DNA of 64,000 nt from Methanocorpusculum labreanum Z (lineage in GTDB: Archaea > Halobacteriota > Methanomicrobia > Methanomicrobiales > Methanocorpusculaceae): assembly GCF_000015765.1 (NCBI RefSeq), contig NC_008942.1, positions 1,255,921 through 1,319,920 on the forward strand, written 5' to 3'. The translations under genes and the position numbers were made by a program. This document shows positions 5,578 through 62,204 of this stretch, piece by piece (the first letter of the stretch is position 1; each line of letters opens with the position of its first letter). The notes below the pieces were generated by a model. That model made no database searches and was not told where the DNA came from. It was given only the letters and a program-made list of their open reading frames with translations.

Positions 5578-7284
5578 TTACTCAGCCTGCTTTTTATCGT
5601 TTGCCCGTGAAAGTTCCTGCTTTTCCAGCAGACGGTAATCTATCTTGTTGAACTTGGTCATGGGAAGATCGGCCACGAACTCCACCCTGGCCGGAACGCT
5701 CCAGCGGTTCATCTGGTCTTTGGCGTAATCGATCAGGATCTTCTCTTCCTCAGCCGCATCAAAGGAGCCGAGCGGCTTTTCCGGAACAACGAAGAGTTTG
5801 ATCTTCCGGTCAAGTTTCCAGGGGGTCGCAACGGCGCAGACCAGTTTGATATCGCGATGGTTCTGCATCGCCTCCTCGATAAGGGTTGGATACACATTGT
5901 AGCCGTTCACCTTCACGAGGCGTTTGTGCCGGGAACGGAAACAGACGTTCCCGTCCTTCCTGATAACGACAAGATCGCCGGTGTGGAGCCAGACGTTTCC
6001 ATCGTCATGGAGCCGGAGAACATCCTTTGTGGCTTCTTCGTTCTTGTAGTATCCTTTCATCACCGAAGGACCGAGGAAACAGAGTTCTCCTTCCACACCG
6101 TCCGGTACGAGTTCCGTTGTGCCGGGTTTTACAACGCAGACTTTTGTGCCGGTAACCGGAGACCCGACACAGCCGGTCGGGAGTTTTTCATACTGGTTCG
6201 CGACGAGACAGCAGGCACCGCACGCCTCCGTCAGCCCGTACCCGGTCCTAAAGAGGATATCGGCCTTGGATTTTCGTAAAAGAACATTGTATTTATTGGC
6301 GAGCTCTTCGGAGACGCGGTCTCCTCCGCTGACCATGAGCTTCATTCTGGAGAGATCTTTATTTTCGAAGTAGGGATACATGCGTTCGAACAGAGCGGGG
6401 ACTCCCGGGAGGAACAGGATGTCTTCGGAGAAGATCTGCTGGGCGCATCCTTTCGGATCGAATCTTGGGATCAGAACGATCTTCATACCGGAGATAAGCG
6501 GCGCATGAACGGAAACTGCCAGACCGAATGCATGGAAGATCGGAAGGATCGCAAGGAACCCGTCGCCCACATCGGTTTTACCCTCGCCGATGTCGATCAA
6601 GAGCTGGATGGACATCGAGTTTACCGCGTAATTGGAGAGCATGACGCCTTTCGAGTCACCCGTTGTTCCGCCGGTGTACATGATCACAGCGGTATCGTCG
6701 GGCTGGACGTCGTCAGACGGCAGCTGGAATCCTCCTTTGAGCAGTTTCTTTCCTTCGGCAAGAAGATCGGTCCAGAGCGTGATTTTTGCAACGTTCTCTG
6801 CCTTTGGATATTTGCGCATCACAAACCGGAATCCTTTGTCCAGCACGAATCCTTTGGGGGTTGAAGGGAAGTAGCCGGAGGTCCGACATCTGATGACCTC
6901 GATATTTTTCCCGGAGAGAAGACCTTCATTGACCTCGCAGGCGAGAGCGATCCGGCTGTCTGTGAGTTTAAGGGCATAATCGATATCTTCCTGAGGGGAT
7001 AAGGGATGGACCATATTGCATATTGCGCCGATCCGGTTGACGGCATAGAGAGCCAGAACCCCCTGAGGGATGTTCGGCAGGAAAATAGTGACATAATCGC
7101 CTTTTTTCACACCATGATTCACCAGGGCTGCCGCGATCGCATGAACCTCGTCCATGAACTGTTTGAACAGGATGTGCCTTCCGTAATATGCGGCCGCGGG
7201 TGATGTATTGCCGGCCCTATTGAAACCATATAGAAGTGCTTCGTACAGCGAACGTTTGTTTTCTTCAGAGTAATGTAATGTCAA
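5578..7284 (-). CDS. ANL-superfamily AMP-forming acyl-CoA synthetase-like ligase, paralog 3 (TTG start)
   Basis: A 568-residue member of the same paralog set, with MYTGGTTGDSKGVMLSN, GYGLTEACG, RLVKVNGYNVYP and FNKIDY. It is the most distant of the three: it lacks about 14 N-terminal residues and has a longer charged tail (ELSRANDKKQAE). Translation appears to start at TTG (7284), because a strong GGAGG site lies eight bases upstream and no in-frame ATG is available nearby. It heads a transcript that continues into paralog 2. Substrate unknown; the conserved core suggests the same class of carboxylic acid as its neighbours. Confidence 0.85.
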   Translation of the reverse strand: MTLHYSEENKRSLYEALLYGFNRAGNTSPAAAYYGRHILFKQFMDEVHAIAAALVNHGVKKGDYVTIFLPNIPQGVLALYAVNRIGAICNMVHPLSPQEDIDYALKLTDSRIALACEVNEGLLSGKNIEVIRCRTSGYFPSTPKGFVLDKGFRFVMRKYPKAENVAKITLWTDLLAEGKKLLKGGFQLPSDDVQPDDTAVIMYTGGTTGDSKGVMLSNYAVNSMSIQLLIDIGEGKTDVGDGFLAILPIFHAFGLAVSVHAPLISGMKIVLIPRFDPKGCAQQIFSEDILFLPGVPALFERMYPYFENKDLSRMKLMVSGGDRVSEELANKYNVLLRKSKADILFRTGYGLTEACGACCLVANQYEKLPTGCVGSPVTGTKVCVVKPGTTELVPDGVEGELCFLGPSVMKGYYKNEEATKDVLRLHDDGNVWLHTGDLVVIRKDGNVCFRSRHKRLVKVNGYNVYPTLIEEAMQNHRDIKLVCAVATPWKLDRKIKLFVVPEKPLGSFDAAEEEKILIDYAKDQMNRWSVPARVEFVADLPMTKFNKIDYRLLEKQELSRANDKKQAE

Positions 7285-7595: not shown

Positions 7596-9809
7596 TTTTG
7601 AAGTAGTTGGTATCTCCGATGTAAAAAATCTAAGCCTGAGGGCATTCAATACGACGCAGACCGAAGAGAGACTCATCGCCAGAGCCGCAAAGCCGGGAGA
7701 GAGTTTCCAGCCGAACGGAACAAAGAAAACGCCGGCAGCAAGAGGGATGCCAATCGTGTTGTAGATGAATGCCCAGAAGAGATTCTCCTTGATATTTCGG
7801 AGCGTGGCACGACTGAGGCGGATCGCCGAAACGATGTCCCAGGGATCGCTTTTCATCAAAACATAGTCGGCGGATTCGAGAGCGATATCGGAGCCCGCTC
7901 CTATCGCGATACCCACATCGGCTCTTGCAAGAGATGGCGAGTCGTTGATCCCGTCCCCCACCATGATGACGTGATGCCCGGCTTCCTGGAGTGCTCTGAC
8001 CTTTCCCTCTTTTTCTGCGGGCATCACTTCGGCGATCACATTGGAGATCGAAAGCTGCCCGGCGATGGATTCGGCCACTGTTTTGGTATCACCGGTCAAA
8101 AGGATGACATCCAGACCAAGATTCTGCAGTCCGGCAATGGCCGCTTTGGAGGTGGGCCGGATCCGGTCGGCAACGGAGATGATGCCGAGCATTTCCTTTC
8201 CGCTCGCAAAGTAGAGCGGGGTCCCGGTCATGTTTGCCGGAGTGAAGGATATCCCGTTTTCTTCCATGAAGGCGGCGTTTCCGGCATAGCAGATCTTCCC
8301 GTTCACCGATGCAGATACCCCCCGCCCCGGAACCGAGACGAAATCCTGCGCTTTAACAGGCACGATGCCGTGTTCTCCTGCATAGGTGACGACGGCTTTC
8401 GAGAGAGGATGTTCCGATGCGGATTCGACCGAGGCGGCGATCAGCAGGAGGTCTTCCGTTGTCCCGGAGAGTGTTACGACCTCGGTGACCTCGGGCTTTC
8501 CAATCGTGACCGTTCCCGTTTTATCGAGAAGGATCGTGTCGGCACGCCCCGCAGTCTCAAGCGACTCGGCGGATTTTATCAGAATGCCAAGAGATGCGGC
8601 CTTTCCGGTCGCGACCATGATGGCAACCGGCGTTGCAAGCCCCAAAGCACAGGGACAGGAGATGACGAGAACCGAGATCGCAATCGAGAGGGAAAACGTA
8701 AAGGGCTCGCCGAGAAGCAGCCAGACCCCGCCTGAAACAACGGCGATGGTCATCACCAGCGGCACAAAGATCCCGCTTACTTTGTCGGCAAGTTGTCCGA
8801 TCGGAGCCTTGGATGCGTTCGCATTCTGCACGAGTTCGACGATCGCGGCAAGCGTCGTGTCCTCGCCGACCTTTTCCGCACGGAACGTAAAACTGCCAAG
8901 CGAGATCGTTCCTGCAGAAACAGCGTCCCCCGAATTTTTGACGACCGGAATACTTTCGCCGGTCAACGCAGACATGTCGATCGGCGCCGAACCTTCCGTT
9001 ATCGTGCCGTCGACCGGAATGCCGGCACCGGGTCGAACAACGATTAAGTCACCGACCACCACCTCTTCGGCGGGGACGATCACTTCAACGCCGCTGCGAA
9101 GGACCGTGGCCGTTTTCGGGGCAAGGTCGATGAGTTTTCTGACCGCCTCGGTGGTCTTCCCTTTCGACCTCGCCTCCAGATACTTGCCGATCGTAACGAG
9201 CGAGAGGATCATTGCGGCCGATTCGAAGTAGAGATCCATGGACCAGGTTCCGGCAGCGGCCGTATCGCCGGTCGCGAGAGCTGAAAAAATCATGTAGATC
9301 GCATACAGCCCGTATACGAGCGCCGCAAGAGAGCCCATCGCCACAAGCGAGTCCATGTTCGGGGCACGGCGGAAGAGTGCCGGGATGCCGGATGTGTAGT
9401 ATTTGTTGTTCGCGATGACGATCGGGATGGTCAAACAAAGCTGAACAAGGGCGAATATCCCGGCGTTTGCCGGATCATGGGTCCATTCGAGGAGGGGGAA
9501 CCCCCACATATGACCCATCGACACATACATAAGCGGAATAAGAAAAGCAAAAGAAACAATAAGCCTGATCTGCATCGGGCGAAGCGAAGCCCCCCCGCGG
9601 GGGGTATCGCCCAAAACCAGATCATACCCGGCTGCCCGCACGGCCTGCCGGATCCGATCATCGGACACATCATCCGAGTCGACGACCAGACGATTTTCCA
9701 GAAGATTCACTGACGCGGAGTTCACGCCCTCTACACTTTTTGCGGCCTTTTCAACATGAAGAGAGCATGCCGAACAGGTCATGCCGGATACTGAGTAGGT
9801 TTTTTTCAT
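7377..9809 (-). CDS. copA: Copper-translocating P1B-type ATPase with N- and C-terminal HMA domains
   Basis: The 810-residue protein is a heavy-metal ATPase. An N-terminal HMA domain carries GMTCSAC (Cys12, Cys15). The membrane metal site is CPC at 385-387, typical of Cu(I) pumps. Catalytic motifs are TGES (284-287 region), DKTGT with phosphorylated Asp429, the HP pair at 467-468 and GDGIND at 618-623. Residues 742-810 form a second complete HMA domain with GMMCEHC, similar to a free CopZ chaperone; a C-terminal HMA domain is unusual. Its ATG overlaps the stop of the upstream YrdC gene (ATGA), so copper export is in an operon with tRNA modification and ACT genes. Confidence 0.93.
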   Translation of the reverse strand: MKKTYSVSGMTCSACSLHVEKAAKSVEGVNSASVNLLENRLVVDSDDVSDDRIRQAVRAAGYDLVLGDTPRGGASLRPMQIRLIVSFAFLIPLMYVSMGHMWGFPLLEWTHDPANAGIFALVQLCLTIPIVIANNKYYTSGIPALFRRAPNMDSLVAMGSLAALVYGLYAIYMIFSALATGDTAAAGTWSMDLYFESAAMILSLVTIGKYLEARSKGKTTEAVRKLIDLAPKTATVLRSGVEVIVPAEEVVVGDLIVVRPGAGIPVDGTITEGSAPIDMSALTGESIPVVKNSGDAVSAGTISLGSFTFRAEKVGEDTTLAAIVELVQNANASKAPIGQLADKVSGIFVPLVMTIAVVSGGVWLLLGEPFTFSLSIAISVLVISCPCALGLATPVAIMVATGKAASLGILIKSAESLETAGRADTILLDKTGTVTIGKPEVTEVVTLSGTTEDLLLIAASVESASEHPLSKAVVTYAGEHGIVPVKAQDFVSVPGRGVSASVNGKICYAGNAAFMEENGISFTPANMTGTPLYFASGKEMLGIISVADRIRPTSKAAIAGLQNLGLDVILLTGDTKTVAESIAGQLSISNVIAEVMPAEKEGKVRALQEAGHHVIMVGDGINDSPSLARADVGIAIGAGSDIALESADYVLMKSDPWDIVSAIRLSRATLRNIKENLFWAFIYNTIGIPLAAGVFFVPFGWKLSPGFAALAMSLSSVCVVLNALRLRFFTSEIPTTSKEETMKKVLTIDGMMCEHCKMTVEKALSRIPGVVSAVVDLKAKTAAVELSAEVSDAEFTKVISESGYTILSIK

Positions 9810-51384: not shown

Positions 51385-52227
51385 TTAAATACATCGGCAA
51401 TCCGAAAACTCGTTCACTTCACGGGTAAGGATCGCAATTTTTTCATCATAGGTGAAAGGATACGGACAAACCGCATGTGAATGCGGTCCAAAACTCAGAT
51501 CTTCCAGTTCGAAGGTCATCAGTCCGCTATATTTCATCTCTGAAAGAACGGATTTCAGTTCGGCAGCCTCGGGTGTTCCGGCAAGAGGTGAGTGCATCGA
51601 TGTTTTGCTCCCGCGGCTTGTGTGAATATTTACGATTTTTTCACCGCATTCCCTGGGAAAAGAAAACGGATCACCTGCAAGACAGGCATGGGCGTAATCC
51701 CACGTGAACGAGAGCCAGGAATATTCGTCCAGAACTTGGCACATTTCTTCAGCCGTCACCATATGCGCATTCACCGCAGGAGGCATGTTTTCAAGAGCCA
51801 CGGTCACGGAACTCCCAACAGCAGCATTTCCCACTTTCGTAAGATAACGGGCAAACCGTTCCTTATCCAATGCGCTTATTGGACGTTTGGCCGTTCTTTT
51901 TCCCGGATGGATGGTTAGAACACCGCCGCCGAGTTCTTCCAGAATATGCATGCAGGATAAGGTATATTCTGCGGTGAGCTCCGCGACTTTAGGATTGAAC
52001 GAACAGGGATTCAGTTCGAAAACAGGGGAATGCATCGCGATATTTCCAAAATTCGGGTAGAGCCGCAGCATCTCGATCACTTCCGATGCATGCGCTCCCC
52101 TCAACCAGAATGTAGGGGTCTCCATCCAGAATTCAATAGTATCAGCTCCGGCTTTGTTTACTGCAGCAAAAATTTCCGGTGGTTCATATTCATGGAAGAA
52201 CATCGAAGAAGCAGCGAGTCGAATCAT
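51385..52227 (-). CDS. Xylose-isomerase-like TIM-barrel / AP endonuclease 2 family protein
   Basis: The 280-residue protein has the TIM-barrel pattern of sugar phosphate isomerases/epimerases: WMETPTFWL, AMHSPVFELNP, GVLTIHPGKR, VALENMPP, FTWDYAHACLAG, IVNIHTSRG and FELEDLSFG. Glu and His residues at these strand ends could bind a metal ion. This family includes endonuclease IV and sugar epimerases, and length alone does not separate them. It is divergent from xseA with a short gap (42 bases). Confidence 0.8.
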   Translation of the reverse strand: MIRLAASSMFFHEYEPPEIFAAVNKAGADTIEFWMETPTFWLRGAHASEVIEMLRLYPNFGNIAMHSPVFELNPCSFNPKVAELTAEYTLSCMHILEELGGGVLTIHPGKRTAKRPISALDKERFARYLTKVGNAAVGSSVTVALENMPPAVNAHMVTAEEMCQVLDEYSWLSFTWDYAHACLAGDPFSFPRECGEKIVNIHTSRGSKTSMHSPLAGTPEAAELKSVLSEMKYSGLMTFELEDLSFGPHSHAVCPYPFTYDEKIAILTREVNEFSDCRCI

Positions 52228-52269
52228 TGACCGTTATATTTCTCATGTCAGCAACTAAATGTATGGTAT

Positions 52270-53646
52270 ATGGCAGGAAAGAAGCGAACAGCGCAGCAGA
52301 AGACTCTGGCATTTGATAACGAAGAGTCCAAATCCTCGCTTCTTGCCCCGATTACGGAAAACTCAACACTCGGCGTTTCAGACACCACGCTCAGCGTGTC
52401 CGAACTTGCAAAACGGATCAGAGAAGTCGTCGACTGCCCGCTTCTTACGGACATCATCGTCAGAGGAGAGATCACCGGATATCGTCCAAATGCGTCGGGA
52501 CATCTGTATTTCTCTCTTACGGAACAGGGGGATAACCCCGCCTCAATTTCCTGCGTGATGTGGAAATACTCGGTAAAAAATCTCCCGTTTTCCGTAAAAG
52601 ACGGACTGCTCGTTCAGGCAACAGGTCTTGTCGATTTTTACCCGGCAGGGGGAAGACTGCAGTTCATCATAAAAAAAATGGAGCCGGCAGTTTCCGGAAA
52701 AGCTGGTCTTTATCTTTTGAAAGAGCAGTGGCGAAAAGAGCTTGAGGCAAAAGGAATTATCCCCAGACCGCAGGCGGAAATGCGCGACCCGCCACTTTTC
52801 CCGCGAAACATCGGCGTCGTTACCTCGAAGACGGGATCCGTTTTGCAGGATATCAAAAATGTGATCAGCCGAAGATATCCACTTCCGATCCTTTTAGCCG
52901 GAACATCCGTCCAGGGAGACGGGGCTGAAGTAGGGATCGTAGCTGCGATCCGGTCTCTGCAGGATAAAGCCGATGTGATTATTATTGCCCGCGGGGGAGG
53001 AAGTTTTGAAGATCTGTTCGTCTTCAATCATCCCGATGTCGTCACCGCGATCCGGAACTCGACCGTTCCGATCATCAGCGCGGTCGGCCATGAAACCGAC
53101 ACGACCCTTTCGGATTTTGCTGCAGACCGGAGAGTTCCGACCCCGTCTGCAGCTGCCGAGACGGTAGTTCCGGACCGGTCCGTTCTTCTTGAAAAACTTG
53201 AAAAGGATCGGCGGTCCATTCACGACAGAATGAGCTGGCTTCTCTCAGTTGAACAGAAACACGTTGCCGACCTGAAAATCAGAGTCGAACCGAACCGTCT
53301 GACCAGAAAACTGGAACTCATGCATCAGCAGACGGCTGAACTTGAAGAGCGGATCAGAAGGGCGTGCCTTCGCAGACTGTCTGTTGAGCACGAGGCATGC
53401 AGTGCATGGTCGGTGATGATTCAAAAAGGCGTGAAAAACAAAATCACCACCGCACGACTTGTCCTGCTTGCTCAAAAAGAGATCATTCTCGGACGCGACC
53501 CCTACAAACCGCTTGAACGCGGATACGCTCTTGTGTGGAAAGAAGGGACACTTGTCCGTTCCGTGAAAAATATTGCCAAAGACGATCGGCTGAGTCTGAA
53601 ACTTGCCGATGGAGAGATCACCTCGATTGTGGAGAGTATCAAATGA
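52270..53646 (+). CDS. xseA: Exodeoxyribonuclease VII large subunit
   Basis: A 458-residue bacterial-type XseA. It has an N-terminal OB-fold (about residues 40-140), the catalytic domain with ARGGGSFEDLFVFNHP (240-254) and GHETDTTLSDFAADRRVPTPSAAAE (273-297), a long coiled-coil region (310-400) and the conserved end PLERGYALVWKEG. It cuts single-stranded DNA in both directions together with the small subunit. ExoVII is mainly bacterial and uncommon in archaea, so gene transfer is likely. Its stop overlaps the xseB ATG (ATGA). Confidence 0.95.
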   Translation: MAGKKRTAQQKTLAFDNEESKSSLLAPITENSTLGVSDTTLSVSELAKRIREVVDCPLLTDIIVRGEITGYRPNASGHLYFSLTEQGDNPASISCVMWKYSVKNLPFSVKDGLLVQATGLVDFYPAGGRLQFIIKKMEPAVSGKAGLYLLKEQWRKELEAKGIIPRPQAEMRDPPLFPRNIGVVTSKTGSVLQDIKNVISRRYPLPILLAGTSVQGDGAEVGIVAAIRSLQDKADVIIIARGGGSFEDLFVFNHPDVVTAIRNSTVPIISAVGHETDTTLSDFAADRRVPTPSAAAETVVPDRSVLLEKLEKDRRSIHDRMSWLLSVEQKHVADLKIRVEPNRLTRKLELMHQQTAELEERIRRACLRRLSVEHEACSAWSVMIQKGVKNKITTARLVLLAQKEIILGRDPYKPLERGYALVWKEGTLVRSVKNIAKDDRLSLKLADGEITSIVESIK

Positions 53647-53846
53647 CCAAAAAAGAATCCGAACCAACCTACGAAGAAATGATTGCAGAACTGCGCGAGA
53701 TCGCAAAAAAGCTTGACGATCCAAACACCCCTATCGAAGAGGCAGTGAACCTCCACCAGCGGGGTATGGCACTTATCCAGAAATGCGAAACATTTCTCCA
53801 GAAAGCCGAGCTGACGATTACTGAGGTTCCTCAACAATCAGAGTAA
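53643..53846 (+). CDS. xseB: Exodeoxyribonuclease VII small subunit
   Basis: A 67-residue protein with the typical XseB helices: TYEEMIAELREIAKKLDD, NTPIEEAVNLHQRGMALIQKCE and FLQKAEL. The ATG at 53643 sits inside the xseA stop codon, so the two subunits are translationally coupled, as in bacteria. Its last 29 bases overlap the 3' end of the convergent DUF371 gene. Confidence 0.93.
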   Translation: MTKKESEPTYEEMIAELREIAKKLDDPNTPIEEAVNLHQRGMALIQKCETFLQKAELTITEVPQQSE

Positions 53847-54246
53847 CCACCAGTTCGGCTCCATTTTTTAAAGCAGCCATCAGTTCCCGGGGAAGAAGAG
53901 CTGCGGTGTGATCACTGTACACGGCGATTGTTCTGGGACAAACAAAACAGCTTCTTCTCCAGACAAGATCCGTTGGATGGGTAAGCGTAATGCCGGCCGA
54001 CCCTTGCGAGAGGATGGTTACCGAATGTTCCCCGCAGGTAAGAGTGGTTCGAAGAACAGCAGTTTCCTGAGAAATTGCCTTTCGAAACTCCGGGGATAAA
54101 TCCATAGCCCCTTTGTCAGCCCCGACAGCAATTATACAGTCTCCGTTTGGCGAAAGATCGGTTTCTTTGGTGATCTCGAACGTACTTTTGTGACGTCCTA
54201 AAACATTTTTATGTCCGCGACAATGGATGATTTCGGTAACTGACAT
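53818..54246 (-). CDS. DUF371-family archaeal protein
   Basis: The 142-residue protein opens with IHCRGHKNVLGRHKSTFEIT and continues GDCIIAVGADKGAMDLS, which I recognise as DUF371, an archaeal family with no known biochemical role. It has conserved His and Asp residues that may bind a metal and no membrane segment. Its 3' end overlaps xseB on the other strand. Confidence 0.82.
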   Translation of the reverse strand: MSVTEIIHCRGHKNVLGRHKSTFEITKETDLSPNGDCIIAVGADKGAMDLSPEFRKAISQETAVLRTTLTCGEHSVTILSQGSAGITLTHPTDLVWRRSCFVCPRTIAVYSDHTAALLPRELMAALKNGAELVVTLIVEEPQ

Positions 54247-54361
54247 GCCTTTGATTACGTGTTGTCGGTTTGATTTGATATACTATTTGCATGAGGGAAA
54301 ACAGGGTTGCCGTTTCGTTTGGAGGGTGTGCTTATCTCCTTGAAAATGCAATATGTGAGAT

Positions 54362-54943
54362 ATGGATAACGATATGATATTACTCGACTGTCCGGTCTGC
54401 CTAGAGGAGACGGATTTTGAGATCCTCAAAGAGCCGCCGGAAGCAGTGGTAAAATGTACCGTCTGCGGACATGTTATGCGGGTCACCTTGAAAGAACCGA
54501 AGGTTTTGACCGTGAAAGCAGTCGTCAGTTATGGAAACGATTCACACACCGGTTCGATCGAACTTCTGGAAGGAGACATCATCACTGTAGGCGATTATCT
54601 GGTTGCCGAAGTCGGGGACGATTCGTTCAGCGTAGAGGTCACCTCGATCGAAGAAAATAATGCTCGCAGACAGAAACTTCCAGCAGAAAAGATCGAAGTG
54701 CTCTGGACCAGACTTGTTGATCAGGTCATCATCCGTGCATCACTGAACAAAGGTGCCGTGACGATTCCTCTCTATGAGAATGTCGACGGAAACAAAGCAT
54801 ATACGATCGGTCAGATCACATCGGTCGGCGGCAAACAGTTCCGCGTGACGAGAATCAAACTCCGGAAAGGAAACGTCATTACCAGAAAAGACAAATCAGC
54901 CGAGGCGCACGAGATCAAGAGAGTCTACGGCGAACGGTCATAA
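54362..54943 (+). CDS. HVO_0476-family zinc-finger protein
   Basis: A 193-residue protein with an N-terminal zinc ribbon, LLDCPVCLEETDFEIL then VKCTVCGHVMRV (two CxxC pairs, residues 10-42), followed by two beta-rich parts including LLEGDIITVGDYLVAE and VTRIKLRKGNVITRKDKS. It matches my memory of the archaeal HVO_0476 group, whose molecular role is not established. It lies alone between DUF371 and aqpM. Confidence 0.75.
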   Translation: MDNDMILLDCPVCLEETDFEILKEPPEAVVKCTVCGHVMRVTLKEPKVLTVKAVVSYGNDSHTGSIELLEGDIITVGDYLVAEVGDDSFSVEVTSIEENNARRQKLPAEKIEVLWTRLVDQVIIRASLNKGAVTIPLYENVDGNKAYTIGQITSVGGKQFRVTRIKLRKGNVITRKDKSAEAHEIKRVYGERS

Positions 54944-54999
54944 CTTTTTTTTCACACTGTGCCAGGCACTGAAATAATTTAAAAAAATAAGTGATCGGA

Positions 55000-55746
55000 T
55001 CACTCCCGTTTTCCCGCTACGAAAACATAGAAGAACGCAGCGAGTACGGCACCGACGATCGGTCCGACCACATAGATCGGGTATGTTGTCCAAAGGGCAT
55101 CAGAACCTGAAAGTATCAGTCTCATAATATCCGGACCGAATGATCGAGCCGGATTGATCGAACCGCCGGAGATATTCCCTGTGGCAAGGATGACGGCAGT
55201 AACGGCGGCGCCGATCGCAAGTCCGGCAAATCCTGCGGGAGCTTTCTTGTCAACAGCAACACCCATAATGACGAGCATTAAGATGAAGGTGCCGACGATT
55301 TCGGCCAGAAGAGCCTGCCAGAGAGAGATCCCCGGGAAAGGAGCGGTCGCACCGAGCCCGCCAACGCTAAGGGATTCGGGGCCGATGATGAAAAACAGCA
55401 AAGCTGCTCCAATTCCTGCTCCGATACACTGGGCAATCACGTATGCGATCGTATCTTTTACTGGGAATTTCCGAATCGAACAAAGCGCGATGCTGACTGC
55501 CGGATTGATGTGGGCTCCAGACACCGTGCCTAGAGCATAGATTACTGCCGCTACGGCAAGACCGAAGGCCGCACTGATGCCGAACCAGTCACCCATTCCG
55601 CCAAGGGCACCTATCCCTATGTCGAATGAGGTCGACGGGGTCGTGCCTGCCGCAAGCATCAGCATGATCACGACGGAGCCACACCCGATGAACACAAGGA
55701 TCATCGTCCCGATTAATTCCGCAAAACACCGTCTTGCGAGATCCAT
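55000..55746 (-). CDS. aqpM: Aquaporin AqpM (MIP family)
   Basis: A 248-residue six-helix channel with both NPA motifs: SGAHINPAVS (Asn81-Ala83) and GGSINPARSFGPD (Asn198-Ala200), the latter followed by the conserved Arg201. The length of the loop between the first helices (residues 30-55) is typical of methanogen AqpM, which conducts water and to a lesser degree glycerol and gases. It starts in a TAATG overlap with the DUF2180 gene, so the channel is coupled to the two proteins upstream. Confidence 0.93.
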   Translation of the reverse strand: MDLARRCFAELIGTMILVFIGCGSVVIMLMLAAGTTPSTSFDIGIGALGGMGDWFGISAAFGLAVAAVIYALGTVSGAHINPAVSIALCSIRKFPVKDTIAYVIAQCIGAGIGAALLFFIIGPESLSVGGLGATAPFPGISLWQALLAEIVGTFILMLVIMGVAVDKKAPAGFAGLAIGAAVTAVILATGNISGGSINPARSFGPDIMRLILSGSDALWTTYPIYVVGPIVGAVLAAFFYVFVAGKRE

Positions 55747-55958
55747 TATTTCTCTCCGTTCCAGGCTTTACTGCATTCAGGACAAAGTATCCGGGGGATC
55801 GGATGCTTCAGTTTCTTTGCAGGGAAGGGATATCCCCCCTCCCAAGTCTCTACATCCGAACGAACCATATGTTTCGTGCAGAGACCCATGCCGCATACGA
55901 TACAGACACCGGTTGCGTCCCGGTCAACCCCCTCCTGCTCACATACGTAACATTTCAT
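55746..55958 (-). CDS. DUF2180-type small zinc-binding protein
   Basis: The 70-residue protein has eight or more cysteine/histidine ligands: MKCYVCEQEG, GVCIVCGMGLCTKHM and ILCPECSKAW. These can form two zinc sites of a treble-clef or ribbon type. From memory it belongs to DUF2180, found mainly in methanogens. It is placed exactly between the DUF2193 gene (adjacent stop) and aqpM (TAATG overlap), showing operon coupling. Confidence 0.8.
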   Translation of the reverse strand: MKCYVCEQEGVDRDATGVCIVCGMGLCTKHMVRSDVETWEGGYPFPAKKLKHPIPRILCPECSKAWNGEK

Positions 55959-57458
55959 TTAGACAGCCTCTCGGTACTGGCAATACTGGTGGCGTGAACC
56001 GACAAGACACGCAGTTGCACAGCTCTTACAGGCACGTACCGGCGCGGCAACGGTCTTTTTGTCGAGTGCAATGATGTTTGTCATCATGGTTGCGGTGATC
56101 GGTTCGCTGGTCAGGAGACACGGATAGTCGGCAAGCCGCATAAGGGCGGAGGCACGAACGGTGATGGCACATGCGGGGTATGCATAGCGCTGGGGATTCA
56201 TCAGGATCTCATTCTCGTGGATGGGTGAGAGATCGATTGGAATGCCGTCGATCTTCGGAACAAGCGGCTGGCCCGATCCGTTCTTCACTCTCTCGGCTTT
56301 GTCAAGGATCTTCCAGCCGCGGTAGATCATATCCATGAAATCGCAGTTGTGCAGTTCTGCAGCAGCTCCTCTGGTCGGTTTGATCATCACAAGGTTGTGG
56401 TATCTCTTCGTCAGAAGATCAACGATCATCGGAGCATTGAATGCATCGAGTTCCAGAAGATACTCGGTCGCCGCGGCCGAGGCGCCGGTTGCGACATTCA
56501 ACAGCTGATACGGGGTCTTAATGCTTGGAACGGCGGCAAGAAGCGTTTTTTCAATAACATTAGTTACGGCCTCGATCGTTGCCATGATCACATCATCCTT
56601 GCACATGTTGTAGGTGGACTGGGAAATGTGGTGGGATACATCCCCTACACAGTATGCAGGGATCGTGGCGATGTTTCCATAATGGACCCCGTCATCAACC
56701 GCAGCCTTGACCGCCTTTTCCATACCTTTGCGGTAGTTCTCCATATATCTCCTGGCGGAGAAGGATTTCATACCCGCTTTCTGCATGAGCTTGGCCTGTG
56801 CTTCTACCGGATTGCGGTAGAGGTCCTGAAGCTGACGAACCTCCTTTCTCGAGGCTTCGGCAAGGGAATCACCTGCTTCCATACGTTTTGCAAACAGATC
56901 GCCGATACCGTACGAGGTGTTCATACCCCAGGATTTGGCAGCGAGAATCGCCTGTTTGTGAGCGACCGGGATGTCGGTTTTCGTGAGCACCTGGTTGACG
57001 ACATTGCTGGTTGAACCCGGCATCAAAGCAAAGTCGACGACACAAGTTGGTCCGTAGAACCCTGCATAACAGCGTGCAGCTTCCTTCCCGATGATTGCCT
57101 CGTGGGTTTTGATCGAGTCGGCAAAGATCTCCAGACTCTTTGCAAACTTTGGATCCTGATCACGGAGAATTTCCAAAATGACGGGTGTCTGATAATGTTC
57201 GACAAAGGGATCGTCTTCCGGTTTGACGTGACGGGTCAAGCCCGAGAGAACATTGAAGTGCGTTTTCACGGATTCTTTGTGCAGATTAATGACCGCGGCG
57301 CTCTGTTTTGGACCAACAGTCATCTTTTCCACCGCCTCAACATAGGGGCGGGCATCCTTGAGCGTGAAATGCTTTCCACGTCTCGCTTTGAGAACGCTGA
57401 CGTCGGCATGCTGTGCAGCCATTGCCTCGTCAATCATTTTTTTGTAGAGTTCGGACAT
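55959..57458 (-). CDS. DUF2193-family methanogen protein
   Basis: A 499-residue protein beginning MSELYKKMIDEAMAAQHADV. It is largely helical, lacks membrane segments and ends with a cysteine group CKSCATACLVGSRHQYCQY that could bind metal or an Fe-S cluster; further cysteines are in CYAGFYGPTCV and YACAITV. I recall this as DUF2193, a family confined to methanogens and relatives. The ATG at 57458 follows GGAG at a suitable distance; the reading frame extends further upstream without a matching start. It leads the operon with DUF2180 and aqpM. Confidence 0.78.
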   Translation of the reverse strand: MSELYKKMIDEAMAAQHADVSVLKARRGKHFTLKDARPYVEAVEKMTVGPKQSAAVINLHKESVKTHFNVLSGLTRHVKPEDDPFVEHYQTPVILEILRDQDPKFAKSLEIFADSIKTHEAIIGKEAARCYAGFYGPTCVVDFALMPGSTSNVVNQVLTKTDIPVAHKQAILAAKSWGMNTSYGIGDLFAKRMEAGDSLAEASRKEVRQLQDLYRNPVEAQAKLMQKAGMKSFSARRYMENYRKGMEKAVKAAVDDGVHYGNIATIPAYCVGDVSHHISQSTYNMCKDDVIMATIEAVTNVIEKTLLAAVPSIKTPYQLLNVATGASAAATEYLLELDAFNAPMIVDLLTKRYHNLVMIKPTRGAAAELHNCDFMDMIYRGWKILDKAERVKNGSGQPLVPKIDGIPIDLSPIHENEILMNPQRYAYPACAITVRASALMRLADYPCLLTSEPITATMMTNIIALDKKTVAAPVRACKSCATACLVGSRHQYCQYREAV

Positions 57459-57574
57459 TTTTTTCTCCAAAAGGTATAATTTATTGATTTCTCCCAGACA
57501 TGATAAAGGTATGTATAATGGGAGTTTATGCCAAGAAATATCGCAGTTAGGGGAATATTTTATAAAAAAAAAGA

Positions 57575-58954
57575 TTAACAAAGGATTTGATCGCGTGCAA
57601 GACGCGAAGAGAGATAGGCACAAACAGCGGCGATTATTCCCGCAATGCAGGCAGCAATAACACCCTGATCAGTATATATATCACTGCCACCCGATCCAAG
57701 TGAGGCAGCCGCAGAAAACACAGCCACTCCAAGAATACACCCGATGTTCATTACCGTAAATATCAGACCGCCCGAAGACCCCTGAAGTTCGCGGGGACAG
57801 TGGAGAGTTATCCGCTGCATGCTCGGCCCTTCATTCAGTCCCATCCCAAGACCAAGAAGCAGCAGTCCGACAAAAAGCAAAGGCAGAAAGGAGAGCACAA
57901 CACTGAACACAAGGAACACAAGACCCCCTGCCATCAAAACCGCTGCGAGATTGCATAGACGCATGCACCCAATCTTTTCCGACAAAGCACCAGCCGGAAT
58001 TCCGATGAGAGCCATCGAAACTGGGGCAAGAAGCATTACGAGTCCTGCCGCGGCGACAGACATCTGAATTGAACCCGTCAAATAAAAGGGTATCAGGTAA
58101 ACGATTCCCAGATAGACAAGAGTGACCAGTAACGTCGAAAGAGATGCCCACATCACTGTACGGTTTAAAAAAAGTTTGGCTGAAAGAACTGGATCCGGAT
58201 GCCGCAGTTCCCGCCGGAAAAAAACATACCCGAAAATCGGGACAATGAGAAAGAGCACAATTACCCAAAGAGTCCATCCATCCGACAAAACAAGCTCAAG
58301 ACCCATGAGTAAAGATACAAGCGTCAAAGCCAAAAGGAGAGCTCCAAAACAATCGAACGGCTGTTTTGCCACCGAGTGGATCTCCGATCCCGGGATCAGA
58401 AATACTGCGAGGATAACAGCGGCAACTCCTATCGGTACATTAATGAAAAAGATCCAGTGCCAGCTGATGAACTCGGTAACCAACCCGCCGAGGCCGGGGC
58501 CAAGCGCCAGCGCAATACCGCCGGCGGTCGCAATAACCCCCATTCCCATCCCCCGTATCCCGGATGGCAGGCGTGTTGTGATCAGCATGGTCGCCGTAGA
58601 TACCATCATCCCGGCGGCAATCCCCTGAATGACCCGAAATCCGATCAGGACTTCGATATTCGCAGACACGCCGCAGAGAAATGAAGAGACTGTAAATAAA
58701 ACGAATCCGGCAATGAAGATCTCCCTGTCGCGTCCGGTCCTGTCGGCAAGTTTCCCGAAGAGAAGAAGTGTACTCCCAAGAGCAAGAAGATACGACGTCA
58801 TCACCCATGAAGCAGTCAGCGACCCAATGCCGAGATCGGCAGAGATCGTCGGTAAAGCTATCGAAACGATGCTCGTATCCAGATAATCCAGAAACACGGC
58901 AGTACTCGCAAGGATCATCAGAAAGTATTGTTGGAGACTACTGGTTTGGATCAT
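57575..58954 (-). CDS. MFS efflux transporter, DHA2 (EmrB/QacA-like)
   Basis: The 459-residue protein has about 14 hydrophobic segments. Signatures of the drug:H+ antiporter group: LDTSIVSIALPTISADL near the start (acidic residue in helix 1), GKLADRTGRDREIF (motif A), RVIQGIAAGMMV (motif B) and GPGLGGLVTEFISWHWIFFIN (motif C). The substrate is unknown; such pumps extrude lipophilic or cationic compounds. It is apparently monocistronic, with a long gap upstream. Confidence 0.92.
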   Translation of the reverse strand: MIQTSSLQQYFLMILASTAVFLDYLDTSIVSIALPTISADLGIGSLTASWVMTSYLLALGSTLLLFGKLADRTGRDREIFIAGFVLFTVSSFLCGVSANIEVLIGFRVIQGIAAGMMVSTATMLITTRLPSGIRGMGMGVIATAGGIALALGPGLGGLVTEFISWHWIFFINVPIGVAAVILAVFLIPGSEIHSVAKQPFDCFGALLLALTLVSLLMGLELVLSDGWTLWVIVLFLIVPIFGYVFFRRELRHPDPVLSAKLFLNRTVMWASLSTLLVTLVYLGIVYLIPFYLTGSIQMSVAAAGLVMLLAPVSMALIGIPAGALSEKIGCMRLCNLAAVLMAGGLVFLVFSVVLSFLPLLFVGLLLLGLGMGLNEGPSMQRITLHCPRELQGSSGGLIFTVMNIGCILGVAVFSAAASLGSGGSDIYTDQGVIAACIAGIIAAVCAYLSSRLARDQILC

Positions 58955-59298
58955 GGATTTGAAAACGGTGAAGACGATGCATAACCCTGAATGCGGGGAG
59001 GTAGTGTTCAGACCTCACACCTTTGTCGAGCCTCAACCCTTAATGTCTCATATTTTATCAGCTTCGTGATGATATTAAGGTGAAGTATATATCTCTTCTA
59101 CATAGATAGAGGAATACAACTGCTATCTAGTAGTGAAACAACCTCATTTTATGTATTCTGCAAAGAGCAGATAAAAGAATAGAATTCTGCATCATCATTT
59201 CTGCAGGAATTATCGATCGGGAGATGAGATGATGCCCGCATAACAATTATCACCAAAATACGGAAACAAAAAAAGAGGATTAGGATAGAACCCGCATC
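58955..59298. other. 344-base gap with no gene found
   Basis: Between the MFS gene start and the end of the substrate-binding protein gene. Read on both strands it holds only short frames, an AT-rich stretch near 59100-59180 and no tRNA, known RNA or clear inverted repeat. The promoter of the MFS gene must lie near its 58955 end. Confidence 0.6.
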
Positions 59299-60252
59299 TT
59301 AGAATAATTCCGGATACATCCCTTTTGCAATTACTTCGATCGAATATGCGGTTCGGGAACCAGGCAGAGCAGATTCAAGAGAAAGACGAACAAAGCGTTT
59401 ATTCTTCACTGCATCAAGTTGAGACAAAATTGGATCATGCATGAGAGCCTCAACATTTTCTTCATAGGTTGCCTCTTCATAATCGTGAATGATGATAACA
59501 TCAGGGTTCCTTGCAAGTATTTCTTCATACGAAACGCCGACCCATGCTTTGTCCAAATCATCAAAGATATTCACACCACCGGCGGTTTCAATAAACTTTG
59601 TTTCAATATTTGGCGCACCGGCAGTATAAACACCGCTTCCGGTATCTGAATCATAAATAAATACTTTCAGCGTGTCCTGACCAGAAACAGTTTTTTCAAC
59701 TGCAGCAATTCTTGCTTTTTCTGAAGCAATATAGGCTTCTGCAGCATCTTGAACTTCGAAAATTTCACCAAGTTCCCTTATTTCCTTCCAAACACCCTCA
59801 TAATCTGTTGCTTCACAGACATATACGGTGATTCCATACTGCTCAAGAGCTTCTACAGTGAAGTCACCTTCAAACACCCAGTCAATCGCATACAGGAAAT
59901 CACACCCGCTCGTTACAACCGCTTCGAGAGTTGGATAGCCATGGGTCAATTCGGGCATACTGTTGTATCCAGCTGCATATTCCGGCAGAGGACCGAGGCA
60001 GTGATTATCACAGGACTTGCCGACAACGATGTCGCTCAAACCCAACGCTACAAACACCTCTGCGCAGTTTGGTCCCGCGACCGCAACGGAGGTCGGTTTT
60101 TCGGTAATCGTAATGGTTCTGCCAAAATTTTCCACAGTAACCGGGGTATAATCACTTTTACCGGTATCCTGATTATTACTTCCAACACAACCTGCGCTAA
60201 ATATAACCGCCAATAATAGAAGGGCGACTGTAAATAGAAATAATTTTTTCAT
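59299..60252 (-). CDS. Siderophore/cobalamin-type ABC transporter substrate-binding lipoprotein
   Basis: The 317-residue protein begins with a lipoprotein signal: LFTVALLLLAVIFSAGC, with Cys22 as the lipidated residue. The rest is a TroA/BtuF-type bi-lobed fold (PF01497), with FGRTITITEKPTSVAVAGPN, VTSGCDFLYAID and GGVNIFDDLDKAWVGVSYEEI. It captures iron-siderophore, heme or cobalamin outside the membrane; sequence does not say which. It is the third gene of the set permease-ATPase-binding protein. Confidence 0.9.
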   Translation of the reverse strand: MKKLFLFTVALLLLAVIFSAGCVGSNNQDTGKSDYTPVTVENFGRTITITEKPTSVAVAGPNCAEVFVALGLSDIVVGKSCDNHCLGPLPEYAAGYNSMPELTHGYPTLEAVVTSGCDFLYAIDWVFEGDFTVEALEQYGITVYVCEATDYEGVWKEIRELGEIFEVQDAAEAYIASEKARIAAVEKTVSGQDTLKVFIYDSDTGSGVYTAGAPNIETKFIETAGGVNIFDDLDKAWVGVSYEEILARNPDVIIIHDYEEATYEENVEALMHDPILSQLDAVKNKRFVRLSLESALPGSRTAYSIEVIAKGMYPELF

Positions 60253-60292
60253 AGTTTTTCACACCAACCAATATTTTACAACACAATATATG

Positions 60293-60348
60293 ATTACTAA
60301 TTAGATTTATATTTTTACTAGATATTATTAATTATAATATTAATAATA
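60293..60348 (-). promoter_or_regulatory. AT-rich intergenic region with inverted repeat and shared motif
   Basis: Between the ATPase and binding-protein genes, TATTATTAAT (60323-60332) and ATTAATAATA (60339-60348) form a perfect 10-bp inverted repeat with a six-base spacer. Next to it, ATAAATCTAATTAGTAAT (minus strand, 60293-60310) matches ATAAATTTAAATTAGTAAT at 62294-62312 upstream of the permease gene, with one gap and one change. It may be an operator or a promoter for the binding-protein gene alone. Confidence 0.4.
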
Positions 60349-60375
60349 CCATTGGACAAAACACATACCCGCCAT

Positions 60376-61155
60376 TCAGGATAGATCCGGAATAAAAATG
60401 ATATTTGGTTTTTTTGTAACGGGATGAATTTTGACATCGGCTGTTACCCCAAACACCTCTTTGATAAGTTGAGGAGTAAGGATCTCTTCAGCAGTACCAA
60501 AACGATACACGGCATGTTCTTTGATAACATAAATCCGGTCACAAAAGAGAGCTGCCAGATTCAGATCATGCATTGCTGTTAGAACCGTAACACCAAGACC
60601 TCGAACAATTTCACAAACCTGTAGCTGAAAACTGATGTCCAGATGATTGGTTGGTTCATCCAATATGAAAAAATCCGTCTTCTGGGCAATGGCCCGGGCA
60701 ATGAGAACACGCTGTTTCTCCCCTCCGGAAAGGGTAGAATATTTCCTATCAATCATGGACAACATGCCTACCCGCTGAAGCGCCTCCATAATGATATCTG
60801 CATCTTCTTTGGTATCGGGATCGAACAGTTTTTTGTGCGGGGACCGACCCATTGCCACCATTTCATTCACACTGAAATCAAAGTCGAACTCATTTTCCTG
60901 ACCAACAACTGCCATTTTCCGAGCGATTTGTTTTGCATTCATGCGGGAGATTGGTTCATCATCCAATAAAATCCTCCCGCGATTCGTATGCAGGCTGCCA
61001 TAAATGTTTTTTAGAATGGTCGATTTTCCACATCCATTTGGACCAACAAGACCAACAAACTCGTTTTCTCCAACATACAGATCAATGTCAGAGATAACAT
61101 CCTCATCATAATAGGCATATGACAAATGTTGTACCTCTAATTTATTGGTCATCAT
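60376..61155 (-). CDS. ABC transporter ATP-binding protein (FepC/BtuD type)
   Basis: The 259-residue ATPase has Walker A GPNGCGKST (residues 38-46), signature LSGGEKQRVLIARAI and Walker B FFILDEPTNHLD, then the TAMHDLNLAALF switch His. The C-terminal part is typical of metal-chelate importers. It powers the FecCD-type permease; its ATG overlaps the permease stop (ATGA). Confidence 0.94.
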   Translation of the reverse strand: MMTNKLEVQHLSYAYYDEDVISDIDLYVGENEFVGLVGPNGCGKSTILKNIYGSLHTNRGRILLDDEPISRMNAKQIARKMAVVGQENEFDFDFSVNEMVAMGRSPHKKLFDPDTKEDADIIMEALQRVGMLSMIDRKYSTLSGGEKQRVLIARAIAQKTDFFILDEPTNHLDISFQLQVCEIVRGLGVTVLTAMHDLNLAALFCDRIYVIKEHAVYRFGTAEEILTPQLIKEVFGVTADVKIHPVTKKPNIIFIPDLS

Positions 61156-62204
61156 ATTGCCCTTCCTGCTTTACTTTTAAGCAGTGCTATAAAACAGGGA
61201 CCACCGATAATTGCCGTAAGTATTCCTACCGGCAGTTCTTCGGGAGCGAGAAGGAGGCGGGCGGCTACATCCGTCCATACAACAAGGAATCCGCCAAGGA
61301 GTACACATAACGGTAGGACTTTTTTGTGATCGCTTCCCACAAGCATCCTGCTGATGTGAGGGATCATCAATCCGACAAATCCAATTGAACCACTGACGGC
61401 AATCGTGACACCGGCTAGAAGGGAGGAGATAAGAACCAGCATTTTTTGTGTTCGTCCAACATTTACACCAAGCGTGCCAGCAGTATTATCCCCGAGAAGA
61501 AGAAGGTTCAAGGTACGGTAGTGGATGACGAGGTAGAACAGACATAGAAGCATCATTACAAGGGGAAGAGTGAGATAACCCCATTTTGCACCAGCTAATG
61601 ACCCAGTCATCCAGAAATCAAGATTGTGTACGGCAAGTGCATTCGGCGCGCTGAGAGCAATGGTTTTTGTTACGGCATCCAAAATCATGGCAATAGCAAC
61701 ACCAGAAAGAAGGAGTGTAGGAATGTTGATGCGCCCCTTTACACGGGAAAGCCAATAAACAAGGATAATTGATGCGGCAGCGCCTAAAAATGCGTTGAAT
61801 GAAAGTGCGTAGGTCCCAAGAAAGGCAAATGTTCCAGTGACCATAAATAATGTGGCTGAGGCGCAAGCACCGGAAGAGACACCGAGAACGAAGGGGTCTG
61901 CTAATTTATTGCGGACAAGTGCCTGCATAGCAACCCCGCAAACAGCGAGCGAAGCTCCAACGATAAAACCAAGAAGTACCCTTGGGAGACGAAGCCCCCA
62001 AACAATATTGTAATCAAGCTGCGTGTAGTTGCCGCTGACCAGATTTTGCAGAATGGGAAACTGACTGAAAATAACATTGATTGTTGTTGCAGGACTAACG
62101 CTTACCGGTCCAAGACCGACAGCAAGCAGCATGCTGACCAGAACAATCGGGGTAAGTATGATCAGGAGCGTTTTTAGTTTGAATTCTTTTTTTTGCAGAT
62201 TCAC
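61152..62204 (-). CDS. FecCD-family ABC transporter permease
   Basis: A 350-residue protein with about ten membrane helices and the FecCD signature: WGLRLPRVLLGFIVGASLAVCG, AMQALVRNKLADPFVLG and VSGSIGFVGLMIPHISRMLVG. It forms the membrane channel of a siderophore, heme or cobalamin importer. It is the first gene of the operon. The operon is visibly richer in A/T-ending codons than its neighbours, suggesting later acquisition. Confidence 0.94.
   Translation of the reverse strand: MNLQKKEFKLKTLLIILTPIVLVSMLLAVGLGPVSVSPATTINVIFSQFPILQNLVSGNYTQLDYNIVWGLRLPRVLLGFIVGASLAVCGVAMQALVRNKLADPFVLGVSSGACASATLFMVTGTFAFLGTYALSFNAFLGAAASIILVYWLSRVKGRINIPTLLLSGVAIAMILDAVTKTIALSAPNALAVHNLDFWMTGSLAGAKWGYLTLPLVMMLLCLFYLVIHYRTLNLLLLGDNTAGTLGVNVGRTQKMLVLISSLLAGVTIAVSGSIGFVGLMIPHISRMLVGSDHKKVLPLCVLLGGFLVVWTDVAARLLLAPEELPVGILTAIIGGPCFIALLKSKAGRAI

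Follow-up and report, generated by a model that had tools for sequence, protein, structure and literature searches.

The genes for DUF2193 proteins and AqpM-type channels are genetically coupled across the Halobacteriota (including the Archaeoglobaceae) and the Methanobacteriaceae-type phylum. Conserved gene order is usually read as a sign of joint action, so the two proteins can be taken to act together, and we tentatively propose that the conserved operon pairs a channel with a cytosolic partner acting on the same small C1 molecule, a model that as a whole falls short of probable. While the coupling can be seen in the genomes themselves, the C1 chemistry of AqpM and DUF2193 is what we infer. 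The protein families are known, but the deep linkage of DUF2193 with major intrinsic proteins (MIPs), the exchange of the partner channel and an MtrH-linked DUF2193 paralogue appear to be undescribed in the literature searched, where the name DUF2193 turned up in one paper and DUF2180 in no paper.

A three-gene cassette in the window

In the window, i.e. the whole stretch of 64,000 nucleotides of Methanocorpusculum labreanum Z that was analysed, the genes for DUF2193 (57458-55959), DUF2180 (55958-55746) and AqpM (55746-55000) follow one another in a minus-strand operon, with these features:

55959..57458, minus strand: DUF2193 (PF09959) gene, first in the cassette; 499 aa, from the ORF and the stop-start junction
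56034..56777, minus strand: second half of DUF2193 (residues 228-475), where the majority of the invariant His/Asp/Cys/Glu residues lie; modelled by itself, with low confidence (mean pLDDT 73)
55962..56030, minus strand: C-terminal tail of DUF2193, Cx2Cx9[H/C]x2C (C477, C480, H490, C493), from the sequence
55746..55958, minus strand: DUF2180 (PF09947) gene; 70 aa from an ATG, with eight likely zinc ligands in four pairs
55000..55746, minus strand: AqpM-type MIP channel gene; 248 aa from an ATG, with a PF00230 match and two NPA motifs
57465..57468, minus strand: Shine-Dalgarno-like GGAG before the DUF2193 ATG, read by eye
55967..55972, minus strand: Shine-Dalgarno-like GAGAGG before the DUF2180 ATG, within DUF2193, read by eye
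55752..55757, minus strand: Shine-Dalgarno-like GGAGAG before the AqpM ATG, within DUF2180, read by eye

The DUF2193 stop codon (55961-55959) abuts the DUF2180 ATG (55958), and the DUF2180 stop overlaps the AqpM start by one base (TAATG). The ORF coordinates and both junctions thus bear out the tight coupling claimed in the preliminary description of this DNA. All three genes have, as judged by eye, a GGAG/GAGAGG-type site 5-8 bases 5' of the ATG. The mechanically called DUF2193 ORF runs further upstream, to a TTG; the ATG at 57458 was taken as the start because the Pfam profile begins at residue 3 of the ATG form. The family names given earlier were confirmed by the Pfam scores, which reached 880.9 bits for DUF2193 (cut-off 25; profile 2-498 of 498, residues 3-499), 129.5 bits for DUF2180 (cut-off 22.2; profile 1-67 of 68) and 186 bits for the MIP (PF00230, cut-off 25). 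DUF2193 is present in one copy in the 1.80 Mb single-contig genome, and its nearest named relatives are from Methanocorpusculum (96-95% identity). Two comparisons within the genus gave dN/dS values (NG86) of about 0.01 to 0.09 for all three genes, which indicates purifying selection on the entire cassette.

The cassette looks like an isolated three-gene unit: upstream, 116 bases separate DUF2193 from the end of an MFS gene, and on the downstream side lies a convergent CPxCG gene. The MFS gene as well as the downstream CPxCG and DUF371 genes were rejected as members, being near the cassette in close relatives only. The MFS gene (57575-58954, minus strand), which lies directly upstream, encodes a DHA2-type efflux pump (TIGR00711 above cut-off) and stays next to the cassette in some close relatives only. 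Genes of an iron/cobalamin-type ABC transporter occupy 59299-61155 (minus strand), among them a substrate-binding protein (PF01497) and an ATPase-like ORF named by eye. An Rfam scan of positions 52000-62000 of the window gave no match.

Linkage of DUF2193 and the channel

The linkage was surveyed in 294 Halobacteriota genomes and in 151 genomes of the Methanobacteriaceae-type phylum (that of G438, a Methanobacteriaceae MAG). Profile searches found PF09959 in 86 and PF00230 in 107 of the Halobacteriota genomes. Counting places longer than 1300 bases, and thereby leaving out five shorter pieces (two in G213 and one each in G286, G242 and G176), the matches listed comprise 95 full-length DUF2193 places, 81 of them canonical and 14 others. 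Of the 81 canonical genes, 79 are followed among these matches by a same-strand MIP gene no more than 1.5 kb away. One of the two unpaired genes is found in a genome without a MIP match (G187, locus L071; 7 kb downstream read), and the other in G270, where the 852 bases of room downstream hold no MIP match. In the Methanobacteriaceae-type phylum, PF09959 was found in 82 of the 151 genomes; with broken or partial places left out, 69 of 75 full-length DUF2193 genes were paired among the matches listed, and direct reading added four further pairs (G438/L132, G579/L189, G511/L240 and G536/L248), giving a total of 73/75. The remaining two (G477 and G466) lie less than 100 bases from a contig end. 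The preliminary description had suggested a shared process for the channel and its neighbours and had named the lack of a conserved neighbourhood in other methanogens as what would refute it; such a neighbourhood was found across two archaeal phyla, and the 79/81 and 73/75 linkage supports the suggestion.

A similar picture emerged from the named loci, i.e. the best 80 of 289 DUF2193 relatives, which partly overlap with the Halobacteriota sample. AqpM lies downstream of DUF2193 in 77 of them, and two of the other three are at contig ends (L081 and L091), leaving L150 as a real exception. The named Archaeoglobus loci have the order DUF2193-DUF2180-AqpM, as in the window, and in the genome G265 both of the two DUF2193 genes are paired with a separate MIP. 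When 68 loci, some of them near-copies, were compared gene by gene using mechanically called ORFs, only DUF2193, AqpM and DUF2180 recurred widely at fixed places, which goes beyond chance. The next most recurrent neighbour, an HTH_10 regulator, was present in 15 of the 68 loci, mostly from Archaeoglobaceae. This type of regulator is divergent from DUF2193 in L053, L054, L056, L207, L233, L234, L238 and others, sitting both in Archaeoglobaceae and beside Methanosarcinaceae-type copies with a swapped channel, and is a candidate sensor of the channel cargo. No operon partner of AqpM is named in the parts seen of the AqpM literature searched, which mostly excludes subscription papers, where a prior mention is possible.

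Distribution and losses

DUF2193 had been described as known only from methanogens, which did not hold. An MCR_alpha match was absent, among the matches listed, from 21 of the 80 genomes with a canonical DUF2193; 20 of these are Archaeoglobaceae (f9), which carry the cassette and thereby refute a methanogen-only distribution, and the other is a draft genome of the window's own genus (G163), where the absence is probably due to an assembly gap. Conversely, canonical DUF2193 was absent from 100 of 159 MCR-bearing genomes, and the control genome of Methanocaldococcus jannaschii had an MCR match and no DUF2193 match (both among the matches listed), and DUF2193 is therefore not a core part of methanogenesis. 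A MIP without canonical DUF2193 was found in 29 Halobacteriota genomes among the matches listed, and also at L241-L245. Decay of DUF2193 was observed as well: in G242 (L223), positions 6190-6594 hold a C-terminal remnant before an intact DUF2180-AqpM pair, and in the Methanobacteriota genomes G459, G450, G472 and G506 the gene has internal stops or splits. Searches found no relative in viral contigs and no DUF2180 in plasmids.

DUF2180 as an optional member

The label "tiny zinc protein" from the preliminary description fits DUF2180, in which C3, C6, C19, C22, C27, H30, C59 and C62 are invariant in 14/14 aligned sequences, keeping the ligand pairs Cx2C, Cx2C, Cx2H and Cx2C in each. Similarity to known cross-brace profiles stayed below the cut-offs (B-box with the window protein, 15.3 against 27; FYVE with the L129 protein, 16.9 against 27.8), and we read DUF2180 as a predicted two-zinc, cross-brace-like protein. 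The gene lies between DUF2193 and AqpM in Methanomicrobiales, Methanothrix, Archaeoglobus and some Methanobacteriota (L184-L191), and is missing in the Methanosarcinaceae-type families (f8 and f14) and at many Methanobacteriota loci. A frameshift splits it in the close relative G212 (L033), and in G182 (L042) it is truncated; since many loci have it truncated, frameshifted or not at all, DUF2180 was rejected as an essential member. The DUF2180-AqpM pair persists in G116 (L222) and G242 (L223), where DUF2193 is absent or a remnant. In L066 (G127), a second, shortened DUF2180-like copy is located upstream of DUF2193 (9056-9223) and has no PRI stretch before the last ligand pair.

The channel and its selectivity filter

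The window MIP scored 197 bits with TIGR00861 (cut-off 171), with its NPA motifs in HINPAV and SINPAR, and stayed below the Aquaporin Z equivalog NF003838 (150 bits, cut-off 256). Its best solved relatives are AqpM of Methanothermobacter marburgensis (2EVU/2F2B) and 3NE2, at 289 and 279 bits, respectively, both of the MIP subfamily to which the window channel belongs. The window filter (F61, I186, G195, R201) shares the F-I-x-R pattern of AqpM (F62-I187-S196-R202), three residues being identical and the third place differing by glycine for serine.

The filter F-[I/V]-[S/A/G/T]-R was present in all 63 DUF2193-paired MIP rows (the window counted twice), and a water-type histidine filter beside DUF2193 was found in none of them; these counts are not independent, as the rows are related and some are near-copies. 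Among 20 unpaired MIPs, the filter type of the paired ones occurred in eight (F-I-[A/G]-R), while the other 12 had either FHTR/FHVR (six) or T/S/C-I-A-R (six). In a tree of 55 MIP sequences, with a bootstrap still unsettled and flags on long branches that include the window's, the paired MIPs fell into three separate groups: the main one of AqpM, one of Archaeoglobus (L129, L233 and L234) and the pair L053 and L207, nested among Methanosarcinaceae-type MIPs that are otherwise unpaired. The partner channel has therefore been swapped for distant MIPs at least twice, with the linkage kept.

According to the available parts of PMC3287591, AqpM has a narrow filter of about 1.4 A, has been proposed to carry CO2 and was shown in work cited there (Mathai et al. 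2009) not to let H2S through, while the part seen of PMC6912568 reports it as a weak water conductor. Being narrow and hydrophobic, the filter suits a C1 solute that is small and neutral; an H2S channel was rejected as running against the cited transport work.

Two further arrangements of MIP genes were observed. Six loci from f8 genomes (L204, L205, L206, L208, L210 and L211) have a second MIP type, with a T/S/C-I-A-R filter, which follows genes for URO-D/MtaA-like, DVU_1557-like redox, TrsS-like radical SAM and DVU_1553-like AMP ligase proteins (named from L206 only, the others having the same sizes and order), and this locus is another channel-plus-enzyme cluster. In three f10 loci that lack DUF2193 (L213, L215 and L237), an AqpM-type MIP closely follows an HbpS-like gene, so named from a PF03928 scan of L213 only.

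The DUF2193 protein

Thirteen residues are invariant in 80/80 aligned homologues, namely D142, N262, H276, H277, D288, H370 and D373 together with D376, C447, E452, C477, C480 and C493. This invariant H/D/C/E set, along with the high identity across orders, looks catalytic. The cysteines at 430, 447, 477, 480 and 493 are invariant or nearly so. At position 490, the fourth ligand of the tail, 67 canonical proteins have H (57), C (7), Q (2) or Y (1), and all 13 paralogues have C; such H/C alternation suits zinc. The tail resembles a zinc knuckle at the sequence level, and metal binding by DUF2193 is plausible for this part only.

The structure prediction suggested in the preliminary description yielded a full-length model (pLDDT 84, pTM 0.87), according to which the protein would be all-helical, but no convincing fold match. 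With the full model, Foldseek found no match at E < 0.001 (best 0.18) and VIA-align gave Z scores of at most 5.0 (6qxa_D, 156 residues, 3.9 A), the matches being spread across unrelated helical proteins; with the second half alone (pLDDT 73), the best Foldseek E was 0.79 and VIA-align reached Z 5.0 at an rmsd of 11.6. A new fold is not claimed, as missing matches, whether for the full model or the half, do not count as evidence for one. Sequence searches of the PDB found no relative of DUF2193, and in a Pfam scan of 16 DUF2193 proteins DUF2193 was the sole significant match, with no match to URO-D, MtaB, MtmB or MttB profiles.

A distant paralogue beside MtrH

A hint regarding function came from 13 distant DUF2193 paralogues, with 35-39% identity to the window protein (four aligned). 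No MIP lies within 5 kb at any of the 14 non-canonical DUF2193 places, i.e. these 13 and a 48% identical form in G251 (L231), which is a further exception to the linkage. Instead, an MtrH-type gene is part of the same operon or same-strand cluster at 12 of the 13 paralogue loci, and 10 paralogues directly follow an MtrH-like gene with a gap of -14 to +12 bases; the name MtrH rests on PF02007 scans of representatives and, for the rest, on BLAST likeness to them. The gene order is MtrH-like, MtaA-like, AOR, DUF2193b, Mer in L065 and MtrH (above the TIGR01114 cut-off), Mer-like, AOR, DUF2193b in L228, and the paralogue of L229, which is cut by the contig, abuts AOR. None of these clusters had a recognisable corrinoid protein, and MCR_alpha was absent from 11 of the 13 paralogue genomes (among the matches listed). 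The full set of 13 invariant residues, from D142 to C493, is common to the canonical protein and the paralogue.

As regards the function of DUF2193, the one clue obtained is the company of the paralogue (methyl-tetrahydromethanopterin transfer, methylene reduction and aldehyde oxidation). It points towards C1 chemistry, which is therefore proposed for the cassette; the step from the paralogue to canonical DUF2193 is one that we infer. Against the C1 link, no C1 gene recurred beside canonical DUF2193 in the 68 loci compared, and the MtrH gene of the window genome lies about 275 kb from the cassette. A literature search linking MtrH, corrinoid, Archaeoglobi and AOR found no paper.

Alternative explanations

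A serious rival stems from proteomics of Methanococcus voltae, in which DUF2193 (Mvol_0354) was more abundant on FeS2, and for which the authors, in the part seen of PMC9431491, propose Fe-S coordination by the C-terminal cysteines. The cassette would then serve iron and sulfur acquisition, AqpM passing a neutral sulfur species and the DUF2193 tail carrying or building Fe-S. The five conserved cysteines agree with this, but AqpM was shown not to carry H2S in the work cited above, the H/C alternation in the tail suits zinc and the paralogue accompanies methyltransferases, not Fe-S genes; we regard this explanation as quite unlikely. Alternatively, DUF2193 could regulate or gate the channel, with a part in osmotic control, rather than be an enzyme, for which the near-obligate linkage, swapped MIPs included, and the lack of an enzyme fold match could be cited. 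However, the paralogue keeps the same invariant polar residues without any MIP nearby, so these residues are not for channel contact, and the catalytic appearance of the conserved set speaks further against a gating role, which we consider decidedly improbable.

Other MIPs pass toxic small neutral solutes, and the channel might accordingly export a metalloid hydroxide, H2O2 or methylglyoxal, with DUF2193, which has invariant cysteines, detoxifying it. The recurrent neighbours in the 68 loci included no recognisable resistance or peroxidase-type gene, though, and the filter reported in PMC3287591 is narrow, leaving this as the least credible of the explanations considered here. Finally, AqpM may move water, CO2 or another gas, with DUF2193 and DUF2180 as metal proteins of a stress response, joined to it by the promoter alone. 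The weak water conduction (PMC6912568) and the proposed CO2 cargo (PMC3287591) would be consistent with this, but a shared promoter poorly explains a linkage that has persisted across two phyla despite changing flanking genes, or the duplication and channel exchange as pairs, and such a scenario seems rather improbable.

Proposed role and comparison with known systems

In the C1 model that we favour, a C1 compound similar to methanol or formaldehyde, small, neutral and weakly polar, would cross the membrane through AqpM, and DUF2193 would bind or convert this compound, tying it to the methyl/methylene-tetrahydromethanopterin pool. DUF2180, as a small two-zinc protein, may aid assembly or regulation and can be lost. 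The preliminary description had suggested a small neutral solute or gas, which this model narrows, on indirect evidence, to a C1 compound. In its favour are the linkage itself, its survival through duplication and channel exchange, the filter type of the paired MIPs and the MtrH company of the paralogue; against it stand the MCR-bearing genomes that lack DUF2193, the AqpM genes found without DUF2193, the eight unpaired MIPs with the filter type of the paired ones, the missing sequence and fold relatives of DUF2193 and the M. voltae proteomics. A further-reaching form of it, which we hold to be unlikely, is that DUF2193 founds a new class of C1 enzymes, all-helical and linked to tetrahydromethanopterin, which a dedicated AqpM pore would feed. 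If this form is true, Archaeoglobus and the methanogens regarded as living on H2/CO2 could take up, recapture or dispose of a small C1 compound such as methanol or formaldehyde by an unrecognised route, and AqpM would be a C1 channel, not a water channel. The linkage to DUF2193, for which an MtrH-type methyltransferase is the sole further recurrent partner, turns the question of the AqpM cargo into defined tests on one enzyme-channel pair.

The glpF-glpK operon is a facilitator-plus-enzyme operon, and the cassette resembles it in that a MIP channel is encoded together with a cytosolic protein, in glpF-glpK an enzyme using the channel's cargo; DUF2193, however, is not a kinase, and the searches turned up no enzyme related to it. 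The DUF2193 paralogue can be compared with methyltransferase modules that include an MtrH-like subunit, of which we take the methoxydotrophic system of A. fulgidus to be an example. The paralogue is translationally coupled to an MtrH-like gene, whereas DUF2193 has no match to any of the methyltransferase families. In the parts seen of the literature, AqpM is treated as a lone channel and no operon partner is given, while the window AqpM sits behind DUF2193. Conversely, Mvol_0354 of M. voltae, which has the DUF2193 family name and the tail motif in common with the window protein, appears in the part seen of PMC9431491 as an Fe-S candidate with no channel partner described, whereas the DUF2193 of the window is accompanied by AqpM.
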